Of a DNA stretch of 64,000 nt, positions 42,547-57,836 are shown in pieces (position 1 is the stretch's first letter; every line of letters starts with the position of its first letter). The stretch is from NCBI RefSeq assembly GCF_007746075.1, contig NZ_CP036339.1, positions 2,118,885 to 2,182,884 on the forward strand, written 5' to 3'. This stretch comes from Lacipirellula limnantheis (lineage in GTDB: Bacteria > Planctomycetota > Planctomycetia > Pirellulales > Lacipirellulaceae). The notes below the pieces were generated by a model that saw only the letters and a list, made by a program, of their open reading frames with translations, searched no databases and was not told where the DNA came from. The position numbers and the translations under genes are program-made.

Positions 42547-44172
42547 ATGCGGCGTCTGCCCTTAAAGATCGGTGTGCGCCGCCGTATCACAGCGATGGCA
42601 GCGCTGCTGGCTTTACTGCTTGCATTCGATTCCGACAAGACTTTGCCGCCCGTTAAGTCGGGCGCTCAAGCGGCGGAGATCGTGCAACGGTCGACGCCCG
42701 CAGAAACCGCGGGCGCCTCGGCCGACGTCGAACGAGGCCGGACGCTGGCCGCCAAGTGGTGCGGCAACTGTCACTTAGCGCCCGAGCCCAGCGACCTCCC
42801 TCGCGATCGTTGGCCTTACATCATCAAATGGATGGGCAACTACCTCGGCCACCCGAATATAGACGATGACGTCAAGAACTTGATTTATCCGACGCTCGTC
42901 GCCACGAAGCCGTTCGTCACGGCCGAAGAATTGCGCGCCATCCAGGACTATTACATGTCGGCGGCGCCCGCGGAAACTGAACCGGCCTTTCCGCGAAATC
43001 AGCCGCTCCCCACTACAGCGCTTTTCTCGCCGCAACGGTGGCCCGGATACCTCAAGCCGGCGACGGCGTCTTTGGTCGCCATCGATGCGCCGCGACGACG
43101 CCTTTACGTCGGTACCGCCGATGATTCGATGCTCCGCATTTTTACCCAGGATGGGCTTCTGTATAAGCAAATTGGCTGCGACGAGAATCAAGCGGTGGAG
43201 GTTCGCCCAACCGCTGACGGGTTCGACTTAGCCCTGCTCGGCGACATCGGCATCGACCGCCATCGTGGCACAGTCCAAAAGATTGAAGGCTTCGGTCCGC
43301 AGGCAGGGCCGCTCCGCGCCTCGCGCATCGTGGCCGGTTTTCATCGAACCAGCGGCGCCGCTTGGGGCGACCTCGACCGGGATGGTCACGAGGACGTCGC
43401 TTTGGCTGGCTTCGGCGACTATGCCGACGGAGCGCTTTCATGGTTTGCCGTCAAGCCAAACGAGGAGCCGATTCGGCGCGACCTGCGCATCGGCTCGGGG
43501 GCCCTCGACGTCGTGGTGGACGACGTGGACCAGGACGGTGACTTGGACATCCTAAGCCTCATCGCTCAAGGGCACCAGGAAATGCTGTGGTTCGAGAATG
43601 ACGGGACCGGACATTTCCAGTCGCGGCCACTTTGGAAGGAGCGGTCGGTTTACGGCTACAACTCGTTTCAATGGACCGATTTCAATGGGGACGGAAAGAA
43701 GGATCTTGTCGTCGCCAGCGGGAATAACATGGAGATGCCCGATCCTCCCATCAAGCCAGTGCACGGCGTGTACGTGTATCTGCAAACAGGTCCGATGGAG
43801 TTCACGAAAACGCACTTTCTGCGCATGGACGGCGCCGCCAAAGCATTAGCCAATGACTACGACAACGACGGCGACGTCGACGTCGCCGCAATTTCGGCTT
43901 ATCCCGATTGGCGATCCGACGCGCCAGCCATGTTTGTATTGTTCACCAATGACGGAATGGGCGGATTCGCGCCCTCTACCATTCCGGCTTCCTTCTCCAG
44001 TCAAGCGATCACGATGGACGCGGGCGACCTCGATGGAGACGGCGACGTCGATCTAGCAATTGGCGGCGCCAGTTGGAAGCCGCTTCTTCCGGAACCTTGG
44101 CTAGCAGGCGCCGCCAAGCGAATTGAGGAGGTCCCGCCGGTTGTCGTCTTGTGGAACCAGTCCGTGCGCTAG
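42547..44172 (+). CDS. Exported c-type cytochrome / FG-GAP (VCBS) propeller protein
   Basis: 541 residues. A signal peptide or anchor (10-30) is followed by a small cytochrome c domain: C72-G-N-C-H76 in AAKWCGNCHLAPEP, with Met137 (DYYMSAA) or Met96 as possible sixth ligands. From about 150 to 535 an integrin-alpha-like propeller follows, with Ca-loop repeats DLDRDGHEDVALAG, DVDQDGDLDILSL, DFNGDGKKDLVVAS, DYDNDGDVDVAAIS and DLDGDGDVDLAIGG. This domain pairing is common in planctomycetes, with unknown substrates. First gene of the three-gene exported set. Confidence 0.85.
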   Translation: MRRLPLKIGVRRRITAMAALLALLLAFDSDKTLPPVKSGAQAAEIVQRSTPAETAGASADVERGRTLAAKWCGNCHLAPEPSDLPRDRWPYIIKWMGNYLGHPNIDDDVKNLIYPTLVATKPFVTAEELRAIQDYYMSAAPAETEPAFPRNQPLPTTALFSPQRWPGYLKPATASLVAIDAPRRRLYVGTADDSMLRIFTQDGLLYKQIGCDENQAVEVRPTADGFDLALLGDIGIDRHRGTVQKIEGFGPQAGPLRASRIVAGFHRTSGAAWGDLDRDGHEDVALAGFGDYADGALSWFAVKPNEEPIRRDLRIGSGALDVVVDDVDQDGDLDILSLIAQGHQEMLWFENDGTGHFQSRPLWKERSVYGYNSFQWTDFNGDGKKDLVVASGNNMEMPDPPIKPVHGVYVYLQTGPMEFTKTHFLRMDGAAKALANDYDNDGDVDVAAISAYPDWRSDAPAMFVLFTNDGMGGFAPSTIPASFSSQAITMDAGDLDGDGDVDLAIGGASWKPLLPEPWLAGAAKRIEEVPPVVVLWNQSVR

Positions 44173-44363
44173 GACCGCTGATCAAGGCAACGACGGCATG
44201 CATCCACGTGATCGGCAGCTTAATTTTCATTCAATTGCCAATAAGATGCGTTTGGAATCGAAGTGCTAGGCGTTACACGACGGATCGACGATAATGCCGG
44301 CCGTTGACGATGGACCGTCATCGTCGAGTTCCCCAGTTCACTCTCCCGTACCGGAGCGGAAAG

Positions 44364-45725
44364 ATGGCAATCAAGCGTCCCTTCGAACGTCTGGTGGTCG
44401 GAATCGCCTTAATGGCCTCTGTTGAGTCCACCGCTTTGGCAGAGACTGCGCTGGACGAGCAAGCAGTCGTCGAGGTCGCAGCCACTGCGGATGAAGCCAA
44501 CGATAAGGATGACGCGACAGGGGAGGAGCCGACCCATAAACAATCGGCGCTGATCAACATCAATGCGGAGGGTCTACCGCAGGCCAGCGTGCAATGCTTC
44601 TGCCTCCTCGGAGATGATCGGTTGCTGGCCGGTTGTTCCGGCGCCAAGAACGAGATTCGGGTCTTCGACGATCAGGGAACATACGTCGAATCTTTTGATC
44701 TCCCGGTGGCTCCGGAAGCCATCAACATCGCGCCCGATGGAACGATTCTAGCGGCCGGCGAAGGAGAACTGTTGCGTCTCTCCGCTGACGGGAAGGTTCT
44801 CGCCACAGCCGAGTCGCCGCATGCGGCGGCCATTCGAGACGCGAAGGAAGAAGTTCGCAAACAAACGATTGAGCAGCACCAAGAGCAGGCGAATATGCTG
44901 CCTCAGATGCTCGAGGCTTACGATTCCGCGATGAAAGAACTCGAGAAGCAGATTGCCCAGCTCGAAGAGCAAGGAGAGGATGGAAAGGATCAACTCCGAG
45001 CCTCCAAAGAGATGATGGAGTCTTACAAGCAGGCCAAGGAGCAGATGAAGGAGGAGTACGGCGACAACGCCAAAGAGTTGACCGAAGAGCAAGTTGAAGA
45101 GATGGTCACATCGGCGATTCAGTACAAGCTGAAGGTCGCCTCGATTAGCTCTGACGGCGAGGCGGTGTTCGTCGCCTGCGGCATGCCTGCCGGCTATGGA
45201 TACGCGGTCTGGAAGTTGACTCCAGACTTCACTGACGGCAAGGAAATCGTGTCAGGGCTTAGCGGTTGCTGCGGCCAAATGGACGTCCAAGCGAATGCTG
45301 ACGGCGTCTTTGTCGCTGAGAACTCCCGCAAGCGAGTCCGCCGGTTTGACCCCGAGGGAGAATCGGTATGCGATTGGGGCAAGGCGTCCGAGGGAATCGA
45401 CGGCTTTGGCAGTTGTTGCAATCCGATGAATCTGGCCTTCGGAGCGAACGGCTCGGTCTACACGGCTGAAGATACGACTGGACGCATCAAGCGTTATTCG
45501 AACGACGGCAAGTTGCTCAGCGTCGTTGGAGCCGCCGACGTCGTCCCGGGCTGCAAGAAGGTTTCCATTGGCGTCGACTCGACGGGAGACCGGGTCTACA
45601 TGCTCGATATCACCCGTAACAACGTGGCCGTGCTTTCACGGGTAAATCCAGACCCAAAAGAGCCGCTGGCGAACGCCACTTCCGCGAGCGGAAACTTCTT
45701 GTTGAAGCTCTTCGGGTTGGAATAG
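44364..45725 (+). CDS. Exported NHL-like beta-propeller with cysteine pairs and a coiled-coil insert
   Basis: 453 residues from the ATG at 44364, preceded by CGGAAAG. A signal peptide covers residues 1-27. Propeller blades appear at about 65-150 and 255-430. Between them a long charged helical hairpin (about 152-252) is inserted. Cysteines fall at corresponding blade positions: VQCFCLL (78, 80), SGCCGQMDV (302, 303), GSCCNPMNL (351, 352) and PGCKKVS (397), so they probably lie together at the propeller face. Metal, heme or disulfide function is possible. I know no named family for this combination. Confidence 0.75.
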   Translation: MAIKRPFERLVVGIALMASVESTALAETALDEQAVVEVAATADEANDKDDATGEEPTHKQSALININAEGLPQASVQCFCLLGDDRLLAGCSGAKNEIRVFDDQGTYVESFDLPVAPEAINIAPDGTILAAGEGELLRLSADGKVLATAESPHAAAIRDAKEEVRKQTIEQHQEQANMLPQMLEAYDSAMKELEKQIAQLEEQGEDGKDQLRASKEMMESYKQAKEQMKEEYGDNAKELTEEQVEEMVTSAIQYKLKVASISSDGEAVFVACGMPAGYGYAVWKLTPDFTDGKEIVSGLSGCCGQMDVQANADGVFVAENSRKRVRRFDPEGESVCDWGKASEGIDGFGSCCNPMNLAFGANGSVYTAEDTTGRIKRYSNDGKLLSVVGAADVVPGCKKVSIGVDSTGDRVYMLDITRNNVAVLSRVNPDPKEPLANATSASGNFLLKLFGLE

Positions 45726-45819
45726 CTTCGTCCCACCGGCATACGATCATAGAGCGGCGGCACGACTGTCCCGTCAGGTCGTCGCTGCACTTTTCCATAT
45801 AGTGCTAAGGAGGCCTGTC

Positions 45820-47964
45820 ATGGGTCATTGCAGAATTCCAACCGTTGCCTGGGCGATGCTGGCTGCCCTATTTGCCGCGGCGCCGCTGCGAGCGCCTGCC
45901 GACGACGCCAAGTCCGCCGAGGGCCCCATTTCCATGCTCGTGATGGATCCGCTGGCTCTTCCCCTATCGTGTCCCTGCGTTGCGGGCTATGCCCAGCGAA
46001 AGTACGAAGTCCTTGGAGATTATCTCAGCAAGGAACTTGGCCGACCAGTCGAGATTACGTTCGCGGAGTCGATCAAGAACGCGCTCGACAAAGAGCACGT
46101 CGACGACATTCACTTGATCATTGGCAAAGACTCGGTCGTGCGTGCACAGAGCAAAAAGCACAAGTACGAACCGTCGCTGCTGGCTCGACTTGTCGGCAAA
46201 GATGGTAACGTGAACCAAACGGGACTCATTGTCGTGCGTTCTGCTGACCCGGCGAAGACGCTCTCTGAACTCAACGGTTATCGAATCTTATTCGGTCCGC
46301 CAGAGTGTGATGAGAAGTTCAGCGCCGCCCGCGAGTTGCTCGAGGAGGCGGGCGTTGACGTGCCCGCGGAGAAGGAGGCCGAGATCGCTTACGCCTGCAG
46401 CGACGGAGCCTGCATGATTATCGATTGGGGCGATAAGATTCACGGGGCGGCCGTAATTTCCAGTTACGCTGCTCCGCTACTTGAAGGTTGCGGCACGATC
46501 AAAAAGGGTGATTTGCGGGTGATTGGCGAAACGAAGCCCGTTCCCTTCGTCGCTGCATTCGCCACTAACTCCCTTGACAAGGAAGAGCAAAAGAAAGTGC
46601 AGGACGCTCTGCTGAAGGCCGGCAAAGCTCCCCGAATGCTGGCGGCGCTCGAAACAATGCTTGGCTTCGTGCCAGAAGACTTCAAACCAATCGTACCGGC
46701 GAAGCCCGTGATCAAAGCGGCCGAAAAGCCGACGGCCACGCAACCATCTTCCGGCGAAGCCAAAACATCCGCCGACGTCCGTTCGCCGACGATCCGGGCG
46801 TGGCCCGGGTGGCTCGGACCCGAGCGGAACGGCCGCGTTGAATGGCTGCCAGATTCGCTGCCCGCGAAGCTCGATATCGTCTGGTCTCGTCCCTTTCTTC
46901 GCCCCGGCATGGGCGGCCTCGCGGCCACCGACCGACATGTGTTCGTCGGCGACCGCGACGCCGCCAACCGGGCCGACGTCTTCCGCTGCCTCGATGCAAC
47001 CAATGGCGAGGAGCGCTGGTCGATTACTCAACCAGCGCTGGGACAGCTCGACTACGACAATCTTCCCCGAGCCACGCCCCTCATCTACCAAGATAAGGTT
47101 CTCTTCTTCGGCGCCTTCGGCGACCTTGTTTGTGCGGAGATGGAAACTGGCCGCGTCGCGTGGCGAATGAACGTCCGCTTGAGGTTTCTAGCCCTCGACA
47201 AATTGCCTTGGGGGACATGCTCGTCGCCGCTCTTGGTAAATGATATGGTCGTTGTTAATCCCGGGGCTCCACGAGCGTCGATTGCCGCCGTGGACGCGGC
47301 GACAGGCGAAACTCGTTGGCAAACGCCGGGCGAGCCGCAAGGCTACGGCTCGTTAATTGCGGCGACATTGGGAGGCGTTCGACAAATCGTCGGTCATACG
47401 CAGTCGACGCTATGCGGCTGGAATGCGGAAACAGGTGTACGTCTTTGGTCGCTCAAACCGCGTACGGACGGTGATTTCAACGTGCCGACGCCCATCGTCA
47501 TTGGCGACAAGTTGTTGGTCGCCACCGAGAATAACGGCGGTCGCCTCTACCGTTTTCGAGAAGGAGGTGAAATCGAACCCGAGCAGGTTGCCGTTAACAC
47601 GAAGCTGAATCCGCAAATGAGCACGCCGATCGCCGTTGGTCGACGAGTGTTCTGCGTCAACCGCCGCTTAGATTGCTTCGACGCGGCCGACGACTTGAAA
47701 AACGTATGGACAGCTCGCGACCGCGCCTTCTGCGAGTTCGGGGCGGCCATCGCGACCGATTCTCGCGTTCTCGTGCAGGGACGTGGGGGCGAGCTAGTAT
47801 TGATCGACGTTTCCGGGCCTGAACCGGCGATCGTCTCACGCAGTCTACTTACGACCGACAAGGTGGCAGCCGATGCAGAGCTGCTGACGTTTCCCGCCCT
47901 GGTAGGAAGTCGCTTGTTTCTCCGGAACGAAACGGCCGTAGTCTGCATTGAGCTTGGCGGCTGA
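45820..47964 (+). CDS. Fusion of PhnD-like binding domain and PQQ-type beta-propeller, cysteine-rich
   Basis: 715 residues from the ATG at 45820, with a perfect AAGGAGG 6 bases upstream (a GTG at 45802 is in frame but would place the Shine-Dalgarno inside the gene). A signal peptide (1-27) is followed by a PhnD/phosphonate-type binding domain (about 36-290): ISMLVMDPLALPL, YLSKELGRPVEITFAESIKNAL and SELNGYRILFG. It carries six cysteines (51, 53, 163, 193, 198, 224), where PhnD proteins usually have few. After a Pro/Ala/Thr linker (295-322), WPGWLGPERNGRVEW opens a BamB-like PQQ propeller (to 715). Substrate unknown; no permease or ATPase follows. Confidence 0.85.
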   Translation: MGHCRIPTVAWAMLAALFAAAPLRAPADDAKSAEGPISMLVMDPLALPLSCPCVAGYAQRKYEVLGDYLSKELGRPVEITFAESIKNALDKEHVDDIHLIIGKDSVVRAQSKKHKYEPSLLARLVGKDGNVNQTGLIVVRSADPAKTLSELNGYRILFGPPECDEKFSAARELLEEAGVDVPAEKEAEIAYACSDGACMIIDWGDKIHGAAVISSYAAPLLEGCGTIKKGDLRVIGETKPVPFVAAFATNSLDKEEQKKVQDALLKAGKAPRMLAALETMLGFVPEDFKPIVPAKPVIKAAEKPTATQPSSGEAKTSADVRSPTIRAWPGWLGPERNGRVEWLPDSLPAKLDIVWSRPFLRPGMGGLAATDRHVFVGDRDAANRADVFRCLDATNGEERWSITQPALGQLDYDNLPRATPLIYQDKVLFFGAFGDLVCAEMETGRVAWRMNVRLRFLALDKLPWGTCSSPLLVNDMVVVNPGAPRASIAAVDAATGETRWQTPGEPQGYGSLIAATLGGVRQIVGHTQSTLCGWNAETGVRLWSLKPRTDGDFNVPTPIVIGDKLLVATENNGGRLYRFREGGEIEPEQVAVNTKLNPQMSTPIAVGRRVFCVNRRLDCFDAADDLKNVWTARDRAFCEFGAAIATDSRVLVQGRGGELVLIDVSGPEPAIVSRSLLTTDKVAADAELLTFPALVGSRLFLRNETAVVCIELGG

Positions 47965-50361: not shown

Positions 50362-51252
50362 CTAAGCCGCTTTCTCGTCGGCGGGAAGCACATCGACGTT
50401 GACGCCCATGCTGTGTTCGCCGCCGCCGACAAAGACGCCCTGGATGGGGCAGACGTCGCTGTAGTCGCGACCCCATGCAATGGTGATGTGAGCGTCGCCA
50501 ATCAAGGCGTTGTTCGTGGGATCAAAGTCGACCCAACCAAGGGGGCCGCAATGGACTGACGCCCAGGCGTGCGACGCGTCGGCGCCAATCATCCGCGGTT
50601 TTCCCGGGGGCGGAATCGTGCGGAGGTAGCCGCTCACATAGCGACTCGGAAGCCCCATGGACCGCGCGCAGCCGATCGCCAAATGCGCAAAATCTTGGCA
50701 AACGCCGCGACGCAGCCGCAATAGTTCCTCCAGCGGCGTATGCACCGTCGTCGCCTTGGCGTCGAACTGGAAATCGCGATGGATCCTGGCGGTCAGATCG
50801 ACGATCGCTTCTAGAATTGGCCTACCAGCTGGGAAGCTAGGGGACGCATAGTCTCGCAACTGGGCCGAAGGCCTCACGCGAGGCGAGCGGAGCGTCAATT
50901 GGTAGATAGAGAGGTCCGCGCTCGTTGCCCCAGTGATCGACTGTCGCGCCGCGACTTCCCAGGTGAGCGACTCGCTGGGCGTGAGCTGCGGCGTTGGCAA
51001 GACTTGGACGACGCTTCGCGCCGTCACCTCCAGCCCGTTGTGCGACCCTTCGATCGAAAAGTAGTCGACGATATTGCCGAACCAATCAGTACGACTCGTC
51101 ATGAACGCCGGCTCAGGCACGATCTGCAGTCGGTACTCAGCGCACACCTGGCGCTTCGAGGCGCGCGGCGCCAAGTGGAGCATGTTGTGACAGACGGGCG
51201 CGGCTTCCGCGTATGCGTACCAGGTTCGGTGCTTGATTGTGTACTTCATCAT
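50362..51252 (-). CDS. Transglutaminase-like protein of the ATP-grasp/alpha-E cluster
   Basis: 296 residues without a signal peptide, so cytoplasmic. The N-terminal beta domain (KYTIKHRTWYAYAEAAPVCHNMLHLAPR) is the bacterial transglutaminase N-terminal family. The core has the triad Cys185 (RRGVCQDFAHLAIG), His228 (DASHAWASVHC) and Asp244 (GWVDFDPTNN). It is third in an operon with the fusion protein (9-base gap) and the large transglutaminase. In this context it probably hydrolyses or transfers an amide made by the ATP-grasp partner. Confidence 0.92.
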   Translation of the reverse strand: MMKYTIKHRTWYAYAEAAPVCHNMLHLAPRASKRQVCAEYRLQIVPEPAFMTSRTDWFGNIVDYFSIEGSHNGLEVTARSVVQVLPTPQLTPSESLTWEVAARQSITGATSADLSIYQLTLRSPRVRPSAQLRDYASPSFPAGRPILEAIVDLTARIHRDFQFDAKATTVHTPLEELLRLRRGVCQDFAHLAIGCARSMGLPSRYVSGYLRTIPPPGKPRMIGADASHAWASVHCGPLGWVDFDPTNNALIGDAHITIAWGRDYSDVCPIQGVFVGGGEHSMGVNVDVLPADEKAA

Positions 51253-51261
51253 GAAGCGTCG

Positions 51262-53781
51262 CTAGTTGTTCGCTAGTCTCTGCGCCGAGCCGCTGTGGAA
51301 GAAGTACCGATGAGACACAGCGTCCGAAAGCTTCGGCAACGTCGTATCGATGGTCGTCAATAACGAATCTAGCGGCTCCTCGTCGCCTGATTCGTACGCC
51401 CGGGCGATCGCCAGCGGATCGGAGCGCCGAATAAGGTGCAGCAGCGAAGCGGCGAGTCGCTCCTCCGTGACTTGGCCAGGGACGACGGACTCCCGCGGCA
51501 ATTGCGCCGCGTGCGAAGTACATTCTACCAACTGAAATGCCATCGATCGTGGATTTGTTTCGTCTGTCATTAGCAGATCGAGTACCGCCCCCAACTGGAA
51601 CCGCGAGTAATACCGCGACCGGTACGTCATTAAGCTGTCGGAGACTTCCAGCAGCGATTCAAGTGCGGCCGGATCGCTGCCGCCGCCCTCGGCGACGACG
51701 GAGCGAATCAACTGCGACGCTTGCAGCGTGCGCTCCAATCGCCGGCCAAAGTCGAGGAAGCGCCATGCGTGGGTACGAGTCATTCCTTCGGCGAATTGGC
51801 CGGTAAGCGCCGCCAGGCTTGCCAGCAGGCCGTCTACCTTCACGAGCATATCGAGAAGACCGTCGTCCGACTTCACTGGCTGAAACTCGTCGTTGAGTTC
51901 GCGAATGATTCGCCAGGTGTCGAGTGAAATGAGGTCCCGCACCGTGGCTGCCAATTGGGCGAGATTTGCCACGGTCGAGCGCAGCGTGCCGGGCGTCTTA
52001 TCATCGAAAACCGCCGCTGGCAGGAGCTTTTCCAGGGCCGGCATCTGCACCTTGATCTCTTCGACGACGTAACCAGGCTCGATCTGTCCTAATTCAGCAA
52101 GCACGCGGATCAGTAGTTGAAGCTCCGGGATTCGCTCTGCATCCTGTTCGCTTGTCAAGCGCAGAGCAACGGCGCGAATCAACTTGCCGAGCGACTCGGC
52201 GCGCACCGACTGACGTCCCAGCCAAAAGAAATGCTCCGCCGCGCGGCTGGGCAAATCAACGCCGCCGCGCCGTAGCGCCAGCGGTTCGTCGGGCGCCGAG
52301 AGCAATGTGACCGAACTGACGGGACCCTCGGCCAAGACCCAAGTGTCTTTACTCCGCTCGCCTTCCAGAAGCGACACGTCGAGCGGACCGAGCGCGGCGC
52401 TGACCCGCGCCAACCCGCCCGGCATCACCTCGTAGCTATCCGCGGTCGAAACGGCGAACGCCCGCAGGGAAATGTAGGAATGCGTGACGTCGTTCCCCGA
52501 CCAGACCGGCGCGGTGGAGCGGCGGACCCGTTCCTGAGCGACGTACGCTGCGGGATTCGCCTCGATCATCGCCGTCAATTCGCTGCGGCTCAGTTCCAAC
52601 AACCGGGAGTCGTTGACGCCCCGCCGACGATAGGCCGGGCGAATCGCCAACTCAGAGATACGGCTCAGCACATAGCGCTTGCTCTTGGGATCTCCGCACC
52701 ACCAGGTGGCGACGTTAGGCATCAACAACGGCTCGCTGAGCAACGTCTCGGATAGTTGCGGCAAGAACGCCATAAACAGCGGCGACTCTAGCAGTCCGCT
52801 TCCGAGGCCGTTCGCCACCGCGGCGTTGTTGCTCCGCAGGCATTGCAACAGTCCAGCGACTCCCATCGACGACGCATCGGAAAGTTCCAGCGGATCGCAG
52901 TTTTCGCTGTTCGGCCGTCGCAACAGCACGTCGACCGGCGACAGGCCGCCGAGGGTCTTCAAGTAGAGTCGATTGCGCCTTACGGCAAGGTCCCCCGCCT
53001 CGGCAAGGGTATAACCCAGGTAACGCGCGAGGAAAGCGTCTTCAAAGTAGTTTGCACTTCCCGCCAGCTGGCTTAGCCACACGATGCGTGCCCGCTCTCG
53101 GTCGGGCGCCAGACGGGCTAGATGTTCTTGAACGGAGATAAAATAGGGCGCGAGCCTCTCGACGCGGCATTCATGGATCACGTCGGGCAGCATCCGCGAC
53201 ATGGCGATGCGGTTCTGCAAGGCGAAGCCGGCGCCAGAAGGCGATTCGCAGCGATCGTCGAGCACCCACCAACGTCCCTCGGGTGAACGAGCGACGTCGG
53301 CGCCGTAAACGTGGAGGATGCGCTGCGGCGAAACTTCCGGCCGGCAGTAGGGCAGCAGGAACCCCGGATGACGAAACACAGCTTCCGCGGGAATGTGACC
53401 TGACTTGATAAGCTGCTGCGGGCCGTAGAGATCCTGCAGGACGAGGTCGAGGAGCGTCGCGCGCTGGCGCAGCGCCGCGGCGACGCCGCGCCACTCGGCC
53501 GCCTCGATTACCAACGGAAAGGCGTCAAGCTCCCAAGGGTGGCTTCTGGCGTGCGGGGCCTTCGGATCGGGGTAGGCCAAGCTGTTCTGCTGAAGCAATC
53601 GCTGAGCCTGTTCCCAACGGCGGCCAAACTCTGCGCGCGTTAACCCTTCCGTGGCTTCGATAAACTGCCGCCACGCAGGCCGCAATTCGCCCGGAGCGGA
53701 GAAGACTTCGTCGTACGACCCGCCCGCGCCTGCATAACCGCTGAACAGAGTGGCGTCCACGCGTAGATCTGAGCCAGGCAA
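51262..53781 (-). CDS. Circularly permuted ATP-grasp / alpha-E domain fusion protein
   Basis: 839 residues from a TTG at 53781; an in-frame stop lies just upstream, and a GTG seven codons later is the alternative. The N-terminal part (about 30-490) matches the circularly permuted ATP-grasp family: YDEVFSAPGELRPAW, LQDLYGPQQLI, VYGADVARSPEGRWWVLDDRCESPSGAGFAL. The rest (about 500-830) is the helical alpha-E domain: PSRAAEHFFWLGRQSVRAE to YRSRYYSRFQLGAVLDLLM. In many bacteria these are two adjacent genes. It is likely to form an amide or peptide bond with ATP. Confidence 0.92.
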   Translation of the reverse strand: MPGSDLRVDATLFSGYAGAGGSYDEVFSAPGELRPAWRQFIEATEGLTRAEFGRRWEQAQRLLQQNSLAYPDPKAPHARSHPWELDAFPLVIEAAEWRGVAAALRQRATLLDLVLQDLYGPQQLIKSGHIPAEAVFRHPGFLLPYCRPEVSPQRILHVYGADVARSPEGRWWVLDDRCESPSGAGFALQNRIAMSRMLPDVIHECRVERLAPYFISVQEHLARLAPDRERARIVWLSQLAGSANYFEDAFLARYLGYTLAEAGDLAVRRNRLYLKTLGGLSPVDVLLRRPNSENCDPLELSDASSMGVAGLLQCLRSNNAAVANGLGSGLLESPLFMAFLPQLSETLLSEPLLMPNVATWWCGDPKSKRYVLSRISELAIRPAYRRRGVNDSRLLELSRSELTAMIEANPAAYVAQERVRRSTAPVWSGNDVTHSYISLRAFAVSTADSYEVMPGGLARVSAALGPLDVSLLEGERSKDTWVLAEGPVSSVTLLSAPDEPLALRRGGVDLPSRAAEHFFWLGRQSVRAESLGKLIRAVALRLTSEQDAERIPELQLLIRVLAELGQIEPGYVVEEIKVQMPALEKLLPAAVFDDKTPGTLRSTVANLAQLAATVRDLISLDTWRIIRELNDEFQPVKSDDGLLDMLVKVDGLLASLAALTGQFAEGMTRTHAWRFLDFGRRLERTLQASQLIRSVVAEGGGSDPAALESLLEVSDSLMTYRSRYYSRFQLGAVLDLLMTDETNPRSMAFQLVECTSHAAQLPRESVVPGQVTEERLAASLLHLIRRSDPLAIARAYESGDEEPLDSLLTTIDTTLPKLSDAVSHRYFFHSGSAQRLANN

Positions 53782-53819
53782 TGGAAGTGTCCCGCCGCGG
53801 TCGAGGTCTCAACTGGTGA

Positions 53820-56800
53820 TTATCGGTTTCGGCGTAGATCGAGCGTTAATGGAAAATCGGGGTTCGGCTCATCTCGCGGCGGCACGATCGGTCCGCCGCG
53901 ATGCCCCATCTTGAAAAAGCGTGCATAACGGCGACTTTCAGCCTCGAAGGCGTTGATCGGGAACAACTCGGGATTGAGACCCCCCGGATGTCCGACGTGG
54001 TAGGTACACCCGCCCAGCGAACGGTTCATCCAACCGTCGACCAAATCAAAGGCCAATGGGGCATCGATCGGGATCGTCGGATGAAGACAACTTGGCGGTT
54101 GCCAGGCGCGATAACGCACGCCCGCGACGTACTCTCCTTCCGTTCCCGTTGGGTGGAGCGGCACCTTGCGACCGTTGCACGTCATGTAATGGCGCGTGTC
54201 GGTCATGCCCTGGACCAACACCTGCAACCGCTCCAGCGATGAATCGACGTAGCGCGAGGTCCCGGTCCCGGTCGCCTCTTCGCCAAGGACGTACCACGGT
54301 TCGATGGCTTTGCGCAGCTCGATCCTCATGCCGGCCTGAGAGAATTCTCCCATCCGCGGAAAGCGAAACTCGAAGTGGGCCTCGAACCATGCCTTGTCCA
54401 TGGCGTAGCCTGCTTGGCGAATCTCTTCGACGACGTCGTTGAAATCTTGCCGCACGAACTGCGGCAGCATGAAGCGATCATGCAACGACGTATCCCAATC
54501 GACTAACGTTGCGCTGTACGGCTTCTCCCAGAAGCGAGCGACGAGGCACCGCAATAGTAACTGTTGCGCCATACTCATGCGCCAGTGGGGCGGCATCTCG
54601 AACGCGCGGAATTCGACAAGGCCGAGTCGCCCCGTCGAACTGTCCGGCGAGAACAACTTGTCGATGCAAAACTCCGCGCGGTGCGTGTTGCCGGTGCCGT
54701 CGACCAGTAGATTGCGGAAGACGCGATCGACCATCCACGACGGGTAATTCCCTCGGTCGCGAATTTGCTCCATGGCAATCTGCAATTCGTACCGTGCATC
54801 GCGGCGGCCTTCGTCGACGCGCGGCGCCTGGCTCGTCGGGCCAATAAAGCTGCCCGAGAAGAGGTACGAAAGCGATGGGTGATTATGCCAATAGGCGAGC
54901 AGGCTCCGCAGCACGTCGGGGCGTCGCAGAAACGGGCTGTCCGCTGGCGTCGCCCCGCCAAGGACGACGTGGTTGCCGCCGCCGGTGCCGGTATGCGTGC
55001 CGTCGAGATCGAATTTCTCCGTTCCTAGCCGCGAATAGCGGGCGTCTTCGTAAACGCCCGAGGTGATCGCGACGAGCTCGTCCCAACTCTCGGCCGGGTG
55101 GACGTTCACTTCGATGACGCCGGGATCAGGCGTCACTTTGAAGTGGTTGATCCGGTGATCGTGCGGCGGCTCGTATCCTTCAATGACCACCGGCGTCCTG
55201 AATTGGGTCGCCGTTTCTTCAATGGCCGTGACGAGCTCCAGGTAATCTTCAAGCCGATCGAGCGGCGGCATGAAGAGGTGGATCACGCCGTCGCGCGGCT
55301 CGACGCAGAGGGCCGTCCGCACCATCCAGGCGGGGTCAGTCTGCTGCCCGCGGACGACGGCGCCGCCGCGCTGGCCAGCGAAGTCGTTGTTCCCGTTCTG
55401 CAGCCAGGGGGCGTGCGGTCCGCGGCCAGGTTCATGGCCGTTGCCTTCATGCACCCCGCCGTTGCCGGAAAAACCTTCGACAATCTGACCAGAGTAGTCG
55501 CCGAAGTAGGCGCCTTCCGGGCCCGTACCCCAACCGCCGCCGCCGCTCCATGCTGGCTGCAGCGTCTGAGCGCCGACGGCGCTTCGCGCCGCGATATTGT
55601 CGCGCATGCGCTGATACTGCGGCAATGGCTGTCGATCGGCGAACGGCTCCATCGCGTACCCGTACGATTCGATTGCTGGCCGTTTCGCCCACAGCAGCGA
55701 CTGAATCGGCAAACGAAAGCCCATCGGCGAATCGCCCGGCAGCAAGAACATCTCGTCGCTGCGGACAACCCACTCGCCGCTTTCCCAGTACGGATCGTCC
55801 GCCCACCAGACGCGGCGAATCGGCAGCGCACAGCCGACCGGCGACGTGATGCCTTGCTCAAAGACTTTGGCCATCCGCGCGCGGTCTTCGGCATTCTCCA
55901 GTTTTGAATCCCGCAGCGTGACGTTTGCCGGCAGCCGGCGCTCTTTCCAAGCGTAGTACAGGACATCCTCAAAACCGTCGATCACATGCTCCGGCTTCAC
56001 GCCCAAACGTTCGGCCAATGATTGCCCAAAGCGGCGGGCATCGTCGACCGTCTGCTCACCCTTCTTCGTCGGATCGGCGAAGAGCGACTCATCCCCCCAG
56101 ATCGGTTGGCCGTCGCGACGCCAGTAGCACTTCAGCGACCAGCGCGGGAGCGGTTCGCCCGGATACCATTTGCCTTGACCCAGGTGGAGCAGCCCCCCTG
56201 GCGCGAAACGGTGCTTCATGCGCGTCAACAGGTCGCCCGCCAGCCGCCGTTTGTTCGGTCCCATTGCGGCCGTTTTCCACTCGGCGCCTTCCATGTCGTC
56301 GATCGACACGAACGTCGGCTCGCCCCCCATCGTCAGCCGCACGTCGCCGGCCGCGAGATGGCGATCAACTTCTTGACCGAGCGCGTTGACCGCGACCCAT
56401 TCTTCATCGCTATACGGCTTCGTAACGCGCGGATCTTCGTGGATCCGCGTGATTTCCATGTGGAACTTAAACTCGCTCGCCGCCGCGGTTGCAGAGAAAG
56501 AGATGGGCGCCGCGCCAACCGGATCGGGCGTGCAGGCGAGCGGTATATGACCTTCGCCGCACATCAACCCCGAGGTCGGGTCGAGGCCGATCCAACCGGC
56601 GCCCGGCAAAAAGACCTCAGTCCAGGCGTGCAGATCGGTGAAGTCATGCTCGGCCCCGCTGGGGCCGTCGAGCGACTTTACGTCAGGAGTCAATTGAATC
56701 AGGTAGCCCGAGACGAATCGCGCGGCCAGTCCCGAACGCCGCAAAATGTTTACCAGCAGCCATGCTGTGTCGCGGCACGAGCCGCTGCGCTTCTGCAACG

Positions 56801-57320
56801 TCTCGTCGCACGTCTGCACGCCCGGCTCCATGCGGATCGTGTAGCTGATGTCGCGCTGCAGTTGACTGTTGAGTTCGACCAGGAAGTCGATCGTTCGGCG
56901 CTTGCGGCGATCGATCTTCCGCACGTACTCCGCCAGCGGCGAGCCCTCCATCGCAGGCGCCACATGCAGGAAGGGCATCAGGTCCTTCAGCATGTCGGGG
57001 CCGTACGAGAATGGAAACTCCGTCGCGTCGTCTTCCAGAAAGAAGTCGAAAGGATTGATGACCGTCATCTCGGCGGTCAGCGCCACCTCGACCGAAACAT
57101 GGTTCGCTGGCTTGGGGTGGACGATACGGGCTTGGAAGTTCCCGTACGGGTCCTGCTGCCAATTGAGAAAGTGACCTGCTGGTTCGATCCACAGCGAGTA
57201 CGCCGTGATCGGCGTCCGGCAGTGGGGGGCGGGCCGCAGCCGCACCACCTGGGGGCCGAACTCAACCAGTTCGTCGTAGCGGTACTCGGTGCGGTGATGG
57301 AGAGCGACTCGAATCGGCAT
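53820..57320 (-). CDS. Large transglutaminase / DUF2126 protein
   Basis: 1166 residues from the ATG at 57320 (family start PIRVALHHRTEYRYDELV). The N-terminal beta domain and a transglutaminase core with Cys182 (KRSGSCRDTAWLL), His231 (DLHAWTEVF) and Asp247 (IGLDPTSG) occupy the first 290 residues. The remainder, about 320-1166, is DUF2126: LTMGGEPTFVSIDD, PGEPLPRWSLKCYW, VEVNVHPAESWDE and LDGTHTGTGGGNHVVLGG. The last motifs recall glutamine-synthetase or ATP-grasp-like catalytic centres, so DUF2126 is probably an enzyme. First gene of the operon. Confidence 0.92.
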   Translation of the reverse strand: MPIRVALHHRTEYRYDELVEFGPQVVRLRPAPHCRTPITAYSLWIEPAGHFLNWQQDPYGNFQARIVHPKPANHVSVEVALTAEMTVINPFDFFLEDDATEFPFSYGPDMLKDLMPFLHVAPAMEGSPLAEYVRKIDRRKRRTIDFLVELNSQLQRDISYTIRMEPGVQTCDETLQKRSGSCRDTAWLLVNILRRSGLAARFVSGYLIQLTPDVKSLDGPSGAEHDFTDLHAWTEVFLPGAGWIGLDPTSGLMCGEGHIPLACTPDPVGAAPISFSATAAASEFKFHMEITRIHEDPRVTKPYSDEEWVAVNALGQEVDRHLAAGDVRLTMGGEPTFVSIDDMEGAEWKTAAMGPNKRRLAGDLLTRMKHRFAPGGLLHLGQGKWYPGEPLPRWSLKCYWRRDGQPIWGDESLFADPTKKGEQTVDDARRFGQSLAERLGVKPEHVIDGFEDVLYYAWKERRLPANVTLRDSKLENAEDRARMAKVFEQGITSPVGCALPIRRVWWADDPYWESGEWVVRSDEMFLLPGDSPMGFRLPIQSLLWAKRPAIESYGYAMEPFADRQPLPQYQRMRDNIAARSAVGAQTLQPAWSGGGGWGTGPEGAYFGDYSGQIVEGFSGNGGVHEGNGHEPGRGPHAPWLQNGNNDFAGQRGGAVVRGQQTDPAWMVRTALCVEPRDGVIHLFMPPLDRLEDYLELVTAIEETATQFRTPVVIEGYEPPHDHRINHFKVTPDPGVIEVNVHPAESWDELVAITSGVYEDARYSRLGTEKFDLDGTHTGTGGGNHVVLGGATPADSPFLRRPDVLRSLLAYWHNHPSLSYLFSGSFIGPTSQAPRVDEGRRDARYELQIAMEQIRDRGNYPSWMVDRVFRNLLVDGTGNTHRAEFCIDKLFSPDSSTGRLGLVEFRAFEMPPHWRMSMAQQLLLRCLVARFWEKPYSATLVDWDTSLHDRFMLPQFVRQDFNDVVEEIRQAGYAMDKAWFEAHFEFRFPRMGEFSQAGMRIELRKAIEPWYVLGEEATGTGTSRYVDSSLERLQVLVQGMTDTRHYMTCNGRKVPLHPTGTEGEYVAGVRYRAWQPPSCLHPTIPIDAPLAFDLVDGWMNRSLGGCTYHVGHPGGLNPELFPINAFEAESRRYARFFKMGHRGGPIVPPRDEPNPDFPLTLDLRRNR

Positions 57321-57836
57321 GGTGGCCAGCGGGGTCGGAGGCGGCAATGGGGGGAGTGCTGTCGACAGGTGCGGCCAGCGGGCGCCGCGATGTCCTGCCT
57401 GGGGGGCCGCCTAAAGCCCGCAGTCGTTAACAACGCGTCGTGCCTCAATATCCTGCGCTCTGTTTTGGCTTGCGCCAATTAGTAACCGCAAATTCGCCGA
57501 GATTTGCCGCCCGATGGCGCCCCCAACGACCAGGTTTCTGTCACGGGCGCCCAGGCGTCGGCGGGGCGCGGCCGGCGCCTGCAATCAAATTGCCGGTCGT
57601 TGAGCAGATTCTCTGTTTCGGCGGTCCGATTGACGCGGCAATTCCCTCTAAGGAGTTGGAGTCAACGCCTAGCCAGTAATCGTCATGTCGGCCATCCGGC
57701 AAGATTTCGGCCCGTCGTGCGATTAGTCCTACAGCAGCGGCGTTAGGTACAGACAATTTGGCCTGCGAAGCCATTTTGTCGCATGACGCCGTTGTCGAAG
57801 GCGAAGATCGCCTCGCTAGCGAATTGGAGGGGAACC
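57321..57836. other. Divergent intergenic region upstream of the transglutaminase operon
   Basis: Over 500 bases without a credible gene. It should hold the promoter of the leftward operon and that of the rightward binding-protein gene. I see neither a dispersed repeat nor a clear hairpin. The rightward gene has GGAGGGG just upstream at about 57825-57832. Confidence 0.5.

Follow-up and report, generated by a model that had tools for sequence, protein, structure and literature searches.

A conserved A-run between a cysteine-bearing PhnD-type domain and a BamB-like propeller in relatives of an in-frame fusion gene of Lacipirellula limnantheis

The window analysed in this study, a stretch of 64,000 nucleotides of Lacipirellula limnantheis, carries a gene in which a PhnD-type binding domain is predicted to be joined in frame to a BamB-like propeller. 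As read from the genome sequences, the two halves are also in frame in the clade of the window, and in most relatives they lie in different frames, joined by a conserved run of 8 to 10 A (A8-A10). Slippage on this run very probably yields both a PhnD protein and a PhnD-propeller protein in the split relatives. Judged from the alignment of 112 homologues, the PhnD fold has lost its oxyanion ligand residues and gained four conserved cysteines. The whole explanation that we favour with moderate confidence is a secreted module without transporter, made of an NHL protein, the Cys-PhnD domain and a PQQ propeller, which would use slippage in the relatives and in which the cysteines would have a metal or redox role.

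The fusion gene and its family

Re-reading of the sequence showed a single ORF of 714 aa at 45820-47964 of the forward strand, exactly as delimited in the original prediction; an alternative GTG start is possible upstream, at 45802. The gene, its parts and its partner gene are as follows.

44304..45725, forward strand: secreted NHL-repeat propeller, 473 aa from a TTG start, with an in-frame ATG at 44364; the partner gene upstream
45820..47964, forward strand: Cys-PhnD/PQQ_2 fusion gene, an in-frame fusion to a BamB-like propeller, 714 aa (Pfam and model)
45820..45927, forward strand: signal-peptide-like N-terminus, residues 1-36 (judged by eye; low pLDDT)
45928..46683, forward strand: Cys-PhnD domain, residues 37-288 (PF12974, model and 112-row alignment)
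46696..46791, forward strand: linker, residues 293-324, disordered in the model and without an A-run, unlike most relatives, which have the A8-A10 run and the frame break here
46798..47961, forward strand: PQQ_2/BamB-like propeller, residues 327-714 (Pfam and structural matches)

The Pfam family Phosphonate-bd (PF12974) matched residues 59-282 (E 4e-25, 89 bits for a cut-off of 27) and PQQ_2 matched residues 387-623 (E 1e-21, 78 bits for a cut-off of 27.6). The 714-aa protein stayed below the cut-offs of the NCBIfam models TIGR03431 and TIGR01098 (for PhnD/PtxB receptors; 30.7 versus 261.1 and 33.2 versus 112.05 bits) and TIGR03300 (the BamB equivalog; 44.8 versus 285.2 bits), and a search of PHROGs gave no match. 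The AlphaFold2 model, calculated from 41 aligned sequences, showed two domains modelled with confidence and, at residues 293-324, a disordered linker (mean pLDDT 88.9, pTM 0.59). The Pfam matches and the two-domain model thus bear out the predicted fusion of a PhnD-like domain to a PQQ propeller.

The fold search run with the full 714-aa model covered the propeller only, and structural matches with Z values within 1 of each other were considered as tied. The best solved structure was tetrathionate hydrolase (Z 35.4, rmsd 3.4, 347 aligned residues), and values of 34.1 for YxaL and 33.6 for Rv3035 in the FecB complex (9p3f; rmsd 2.7, 342 aligned residues) were obtained; in a viral structure library only generic propellers matched. 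The window propeller therefore has its fold in common with the BamB, YxaL and tetrathionate hydrolase propellers (Z 30 to 35), and the PQQ_2 model matches. It differs from BamB itself by its score far under the TIGR03300 cut-off and shows no evidence of a role in outer-membrane assembly. Recurrent cysteines overlooked in the original prediction are present in this half: C390 (87 of 97 filled rows), C438 (87 of 98) and C467 (70 of 100). About 17 further proteins, scattered over the genome of the window, match the propeller half of the gene.

Full-length or near-full-length relatives are present in the genus and in the family of the window. Among 297 genomes sampled within the class, the PhnD domain turned up in 68 (E up to 1e-8, one very weak match included), and a profile search at the level of the phylum matched 18 of 392 genomes. 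A scan of contigs recovered 164 relatives, the best 80 of the 164 being nearly all planctomycete by title. Sequence comparison served to discard duplicate loci of the same genomes, which left 65 distinct split and 37 distinct fused loci, the window not being counted. One candidate member, L254, proved to be an ordinary PhnD-like protein without the cysteines and was dropped.

The A-run at the junction

In the split relatives the PhnD ORF, of 275-387 aa, ends at an A-run, and the propeller frame is already open upstream of the run. An A8-A10 run, mostly A9, is located at the junction in 64 of the 65 distinct split loci. In 63 of them it is no more than 45 nt away from the stop (A9 in 52, A8 in 9 and A10 in 2); L168 has an A8 run about 150 nt upstream of the stop, and L107, with an in-frame stop, is the lone split locus without a run. 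The propeller frame was scored by script as -1 in 60 split loci, +1 in 4 and in frame in 1. In two of the loci scored +1 (L131 and L160) the propeller is broken and, by coordinates, its first piece lies in -1, so the tally becomes 62, 2 and 1, respectively. With one A added, 59 of 63 loci would encode a product of 640 aa or more, the exceptions being L131, L138, L149 and L160. In 44 of the 59 scorable split loci, no ATG, GTG or TTG precedes the propeller motif in its own frame and the first start falls inside the propeller. Long runs are nearly confined to the junction: 50 runs of at least A9 were counted on both strands of 80 named loci (1,060,988 bases), 45 of them at split junctions, 3 at in-frame fused junctions (L135, L142 and L169) and 2 elsewhere, hence 48 of 50 at junctions. 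The junction runs occupy the same place in isolates and in single-contig genomes (e.g. L095, L096, L101, L147 and L187).

We propose that RNA polymerase (or the ribosome) would slip on the A-run and produce, in a set ratio, a short protein made of PhnD alone (about 275-390 aa, mostly ending in KKK) and a long PhnD-propeller protein (about 650-810 aa), and that the lineage of the window would have fixed the long form. A precedent is dnaX of Thermus thermophilus, where an A9 run within the gene likewise leads by slippage to a short and a long product (PMC1088944); according to the same paper, many bacteria show selection against such runs at a length of nine. The two cases differ in that the DNA frame of Thermus dnaX encodes the long product, whereas in most relatives studied here it encodes the short one.

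We think it probable that the slippage is transcriptional. The competing mechanism, which we regard as unlikely, is programmed -1 ribosomal frameshifting at A-AAA-AAG as in E. coli dnaX, with RNA polymerase uninvolved. Several features of the 63 loci would suit it: AAA AAN is in phase in 51 of them (an A9 starting from the third codon base, or an A8 from the first), the run is followed by G in 52 and by C in 11, and the stop lies one base past the run in 41. Moreover, ribosomes are reported to slide on lysine-coding A stretches (PMC4363877). However, the run counts at least 8 A in 63 of 63 loci, which exceeds the heptamer that ribosomal frameshifting needs, and no Shine-Dalgarno-like enrichment was seen upstream (8 of 63 loci versus 11.6 in shuffles). 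Downstream folding was weak, with z of -3 or below in just 4 of the 20 loci tested out of the 63, and a downstream stem-loop acting as universal stimulator was discarded on this count. Finally, L138 (A10) and L168 (A8) need the opposite shift. Run length, the need for both shift directions, the missing Shine-Dalgarno enrichment and the weak downstream structure all argue for transcriptional slippage.

Phase variation, in which replication slippage on the A-run would toggle the fusion at the DNA level within a population, appears very unlikely. The run does vary between close Gimesia-like relatives, being an in-frame A10 or A8 in L091, L092 and L135 and an out-of-frame A9 in L095; yet over the 69 distinct run-bearing loci the phase is not random (62 in -1, 2 in +1 and 5 in frame). 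That the split loci are merely two separate genes, with an A-run that is incidental or a sequencing error, would fit L107 with its in-frame stop and no run, but is highly improbable and was rejected given the propeller frames without usable start, the near absence of A9 elsewhere and the recurrence of the run at one position in isolates and single-contig genomes.

Slippage does not apply to the window gene, since its linker has no A-run. A run of at least A8 persists in 5 of the 37 distinct in-frame fused loci (L091, L092, L098, L135 and L142) and is missing from the other 32. KKK is absent from all 32 linkers without run; the run is therefore kept at the level of DNA, not for its lysines. In L098, L135 and L142, removing one A leads to an immediate KKK-stop, which restores the short form. 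In a tree of 107 rows the window gene belongs to a starred set of 17 rows, all of them in-frame fusions. In the Gimesia group, in-frame rows with A10 and A8 stand next to out-of-frame rows with A9. The slip label changes at least 14 times on this tree, 8 of the changes being forced by starred branches; these counts are approximate because L103 and L197 are mislabelled, L103 being scored "fusedA" for an A8 within the propeller coding part and L197 "lone" though its contig ends at the gene.

Cysteines, ligand site and NHL partner

The original prediction placed six cysteines in the PhnD domain, at residues 51, 53, 163, 193, 198 and 224, and all six positions are exact. Their location and their conservation in the 112-row alignment are given below.

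45967..45978, forward strand: S-C51-P-C53, invariant C-x-C; loop from strand 37-42 to helix 62-73, both Cys in 112/112
46306..46308, forward strand: C163, variable, Cys in 67/112, aligned with PtxB S130
46396..46398, forward strand: C193, Cys in 110/112, the residue before the PtxB H160 position
46411..46413, forward strand: C198, variable, Cys in 35/112
46489..46491, forward strand: C224 in LLEGCG, Cys in 111/112, just after helix 215-222

Conservation in homologues had been named as the test of the prediction, which treated the six as one set. The set did not hold together: C51, C53, C193 and C224 are kept, unlike C163 and C198. An initial alignment of 41 homologues agrees with this pattern and gives VMDPLAxPLSCPCVxGYAQRxY as the motif around C51 and C53. 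The exceptions among the 112 rows are L105 and L106, without C193, and L246, without Cys in the C224 column.

PMC5700983 gives Y55, Y100, S130, T131, S132, H160 and, in the cap, Y208 as the phosphite-binding residues of PtxB. These were mapped onto the family through a profile alignment, in which the Cys-PhnD domain has sequence matches to 5jvb and 5o2j; 5jvb was taken as the PtxB of that paper because its S-T-S and H have the same numbers. The columns of Y55, Y100, S130, T131 and S132 are occupied in the family by L/I, Q, C/A/S, D/E and E, respectively, the latter in 111 of 112 rows. Ser is kept at the S130 column in only 15 of 112 rows, the H160 column is S in 92 and never H, and the Y208 column is I/V. 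The STS-H motif and the binding tyrosines of the PhnD/PtxB receptors are thus absent from the aligned columns of the family. With the PtxB phosphite-binding residues essentially gone, a phosphonate ligand is unlikely; it was rejected on this mapping, which supports the prediction that the ligand is not a phosphonate.

The cysteines had also been placed at loops around the cleft. C163 aligns with S130 and C193 precedes H160, so both are at cleft loops by homology. C224, which follows helix 215-222, may according to the model be far from the cleft. Taken as a whole, the original prediction is partly supported, and the heme or metal ligand suggested there is conceivable.

An NHL gene accompanies the PhnD-propeller gene in 36 of 40 loci and in 71 of 80 named ones; in these 71 the strand is the same without exception, and in 69 of them the NHL gene overlaps or ends within 300 nt. 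Over the 40 loci, examined for about 9 kb on each side where the contig allowed, it was the only recurrent neighbour; no ABC permease or ATPase, histidine kinase or Fe-S gene recurs. The predicted absence of a transporter nearby is thus supported in that no transporter gene recurs in these loci. The model of the NHL protein (pLDDT 86.7) resembles the NHL domains of Thin (Z 28.5) and TRIM2 (Z 28), with a long helical hairpin of about 100 residues inserted in the propeller. Its cysteines, overlooked in the original prediction, are highly conserved: C322, C323, C371 and C372 in 37 of 37 sequences and C417 in 35 of 37. We infer from the sequence that each conserved CC or C would start the inner strand of a blade.

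Two other features were observed in the window. Upstream of the module, positions 42547-44172 encode an FG-GAP/VCBS-type protein with a CGNCH heme-c-like motif, which is not a recurrent neighbour. At 50362-57347, on the reverse strand, are three consecutive genes which we take to resemble transglutaminase-like and circularly permuted ATP-grasp type proteins.

Candidate functions and meaning

We propose that the PhnD and NHL cysteines would hold a metal or redox centre, or form a thiol relay, at the cell surface and would not serve phosphonate binding, and that the propeller would be the scaffold of an orphan binding protein, in the way that mycobacterial Rv3035 serves FecB. For the cysteines, the likeliest role is in thiol redox or metal chemistry, and we give a Cys-based metal or redox function an even chance of being correct.

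Two distant loci provide a hint in this direction. The distant homologue of L246, in which C51, C53 and C193 are retained, is encoded between an NHL gene and a gene for a twin-arginine-like 4Fe-4S ferredoxin. In L257 (5867-14858), from a distant planctomycete family, an operon contains genes for a PQQ_2 propeller, an NHL protein (with CCNPTN), a twin-arginine-like ferredoxin, a membrane Fer4_5 protein, a 2Fe-2S-thioredoxin-type protein, a Nuo51-type protein and a pyridine-nucleotide oxidoreductase, with NapH-like and NuoE/NuoF-type genes among them, which together look like an electron-transfer unit. The ferredoxins of L246 and L257 are homologous (E 9e-27), and the L257 NHL protein matches that of the window (E 1e-16). 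Only weak similarity (E 0.009) links the L257 membrane protein to the truncated gene that follows the ferredoxin of L246. These operons may tie NHL relatives to Fe-S electron transfer. Plasmids searched with the PhnD-like protein of L246 yielded a single weak match.

It is also conceivable, if doubtful, that the ligand of the Cys-PhnD domain is arsenite, a heavy metal or another thiol-reactive metal(loid), and that the domain works as a sensor or scavenger in the manner of AioX. AioX, according to PMC5908839, is a PhnD-type protein whose arsenite site includes Cys106, and the arsenic-oxyanion sensors AioX, ArxX and ArrX are likewise of PhnD type, without transporter and with a Cys at the site. 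In the same direction, lone Cys-PhnD paralogues without propeller or NHL gene (L183 3808-8771, L186 3-2011 and L189 3438-6204) directly follow a CobW GTPase gene (with CFCC); an ArsR-type gene is close to those of L183 and L189, and in L183 there are also an MFS gene and a protein whose N-terminus is of ArsI/CadI type and whose C-terminus is ArsM-like. However, CobW is found without this PhnD in 119 of 198 genomes of the class; its link to the lone paralogues is therefore weak, and the latter were set aside as a guide to function. The Cys position may differ as well: Cys106 of AioX corresponds to Gly65 of PhnD in PMC5908839 and, as read from that correspondence, none of the cysteines of the window gene seems to be there. 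The partners of the sensors, a histidine kinase and a response regulator, are not recurrent here, no histidine kinase recurring beside the main module in the 40 loci.

That the protein is still a phosphate, phosphite or phosphonate receptor, with cysteines serving only as structural disulfides, seems quite unlikely. The PF12974 match would speak for it, and disulfides are common in secreted domains; against it are the replaced PtxB ligand residues and the 40 loci without recurrent ABC genes. The window domain shares fold and PF12974 membership with PtxB, PhnD and HtxB, and its family differs from them by the replaced ligand residues, the four conserved cysteines, the lack of recurrent transporter genes, and a propeller that is fused or linked by slippage.

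A close arrangement is found in mycobacteria. FecB is of the siderophore-binding type. In PMC12802301, FecB, MMAR_1667/Rv3035 and AftB offer a precedent for an orphan binding protein with a BamB-like propeller, the likeness being that of the propeller fold, the only part compared (9p3f, Z 33.6). FecB is encoded apart from Rv3035, whereas the window pair is one gene and has conserved cysteines.

No published description of this module or of its slippage site was found in the open-licence literature. As far as their available text goes, a large survey of frame transitions (PMC3711429) includes only two planctomycete genomes and leaves phosphonate unmentioned, and a review of recoding (PMC5009743) mentions neither planctomycetes nor phosphonate.

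The module appears to be a binding-protein system without transporter and with conserved cysteines, close to the FecB-Rv3035 arrangement. Tentatively, the conserved A9 site would give two secreted proteins, a Cys-bearing orphan binding protein and its propeller fusion, which with the Cys-ringed NHL protein would make up a new extracytoplasmic metal or redox assembly, the lineage of the window being one in which the site was resolved into a permanent fusion. To our knowledge, not many slippage sites of ordinary cellular genes are conserved widely. The present run, almost missing elsewhere in these loci, has been retained at a single position in divergent planctomycetes, at times with the default frame flipped. 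How bacteria set the ratio between a protein and its fused form, and how a slippage site becomes a permanent fusion, could be put to the test on this case.
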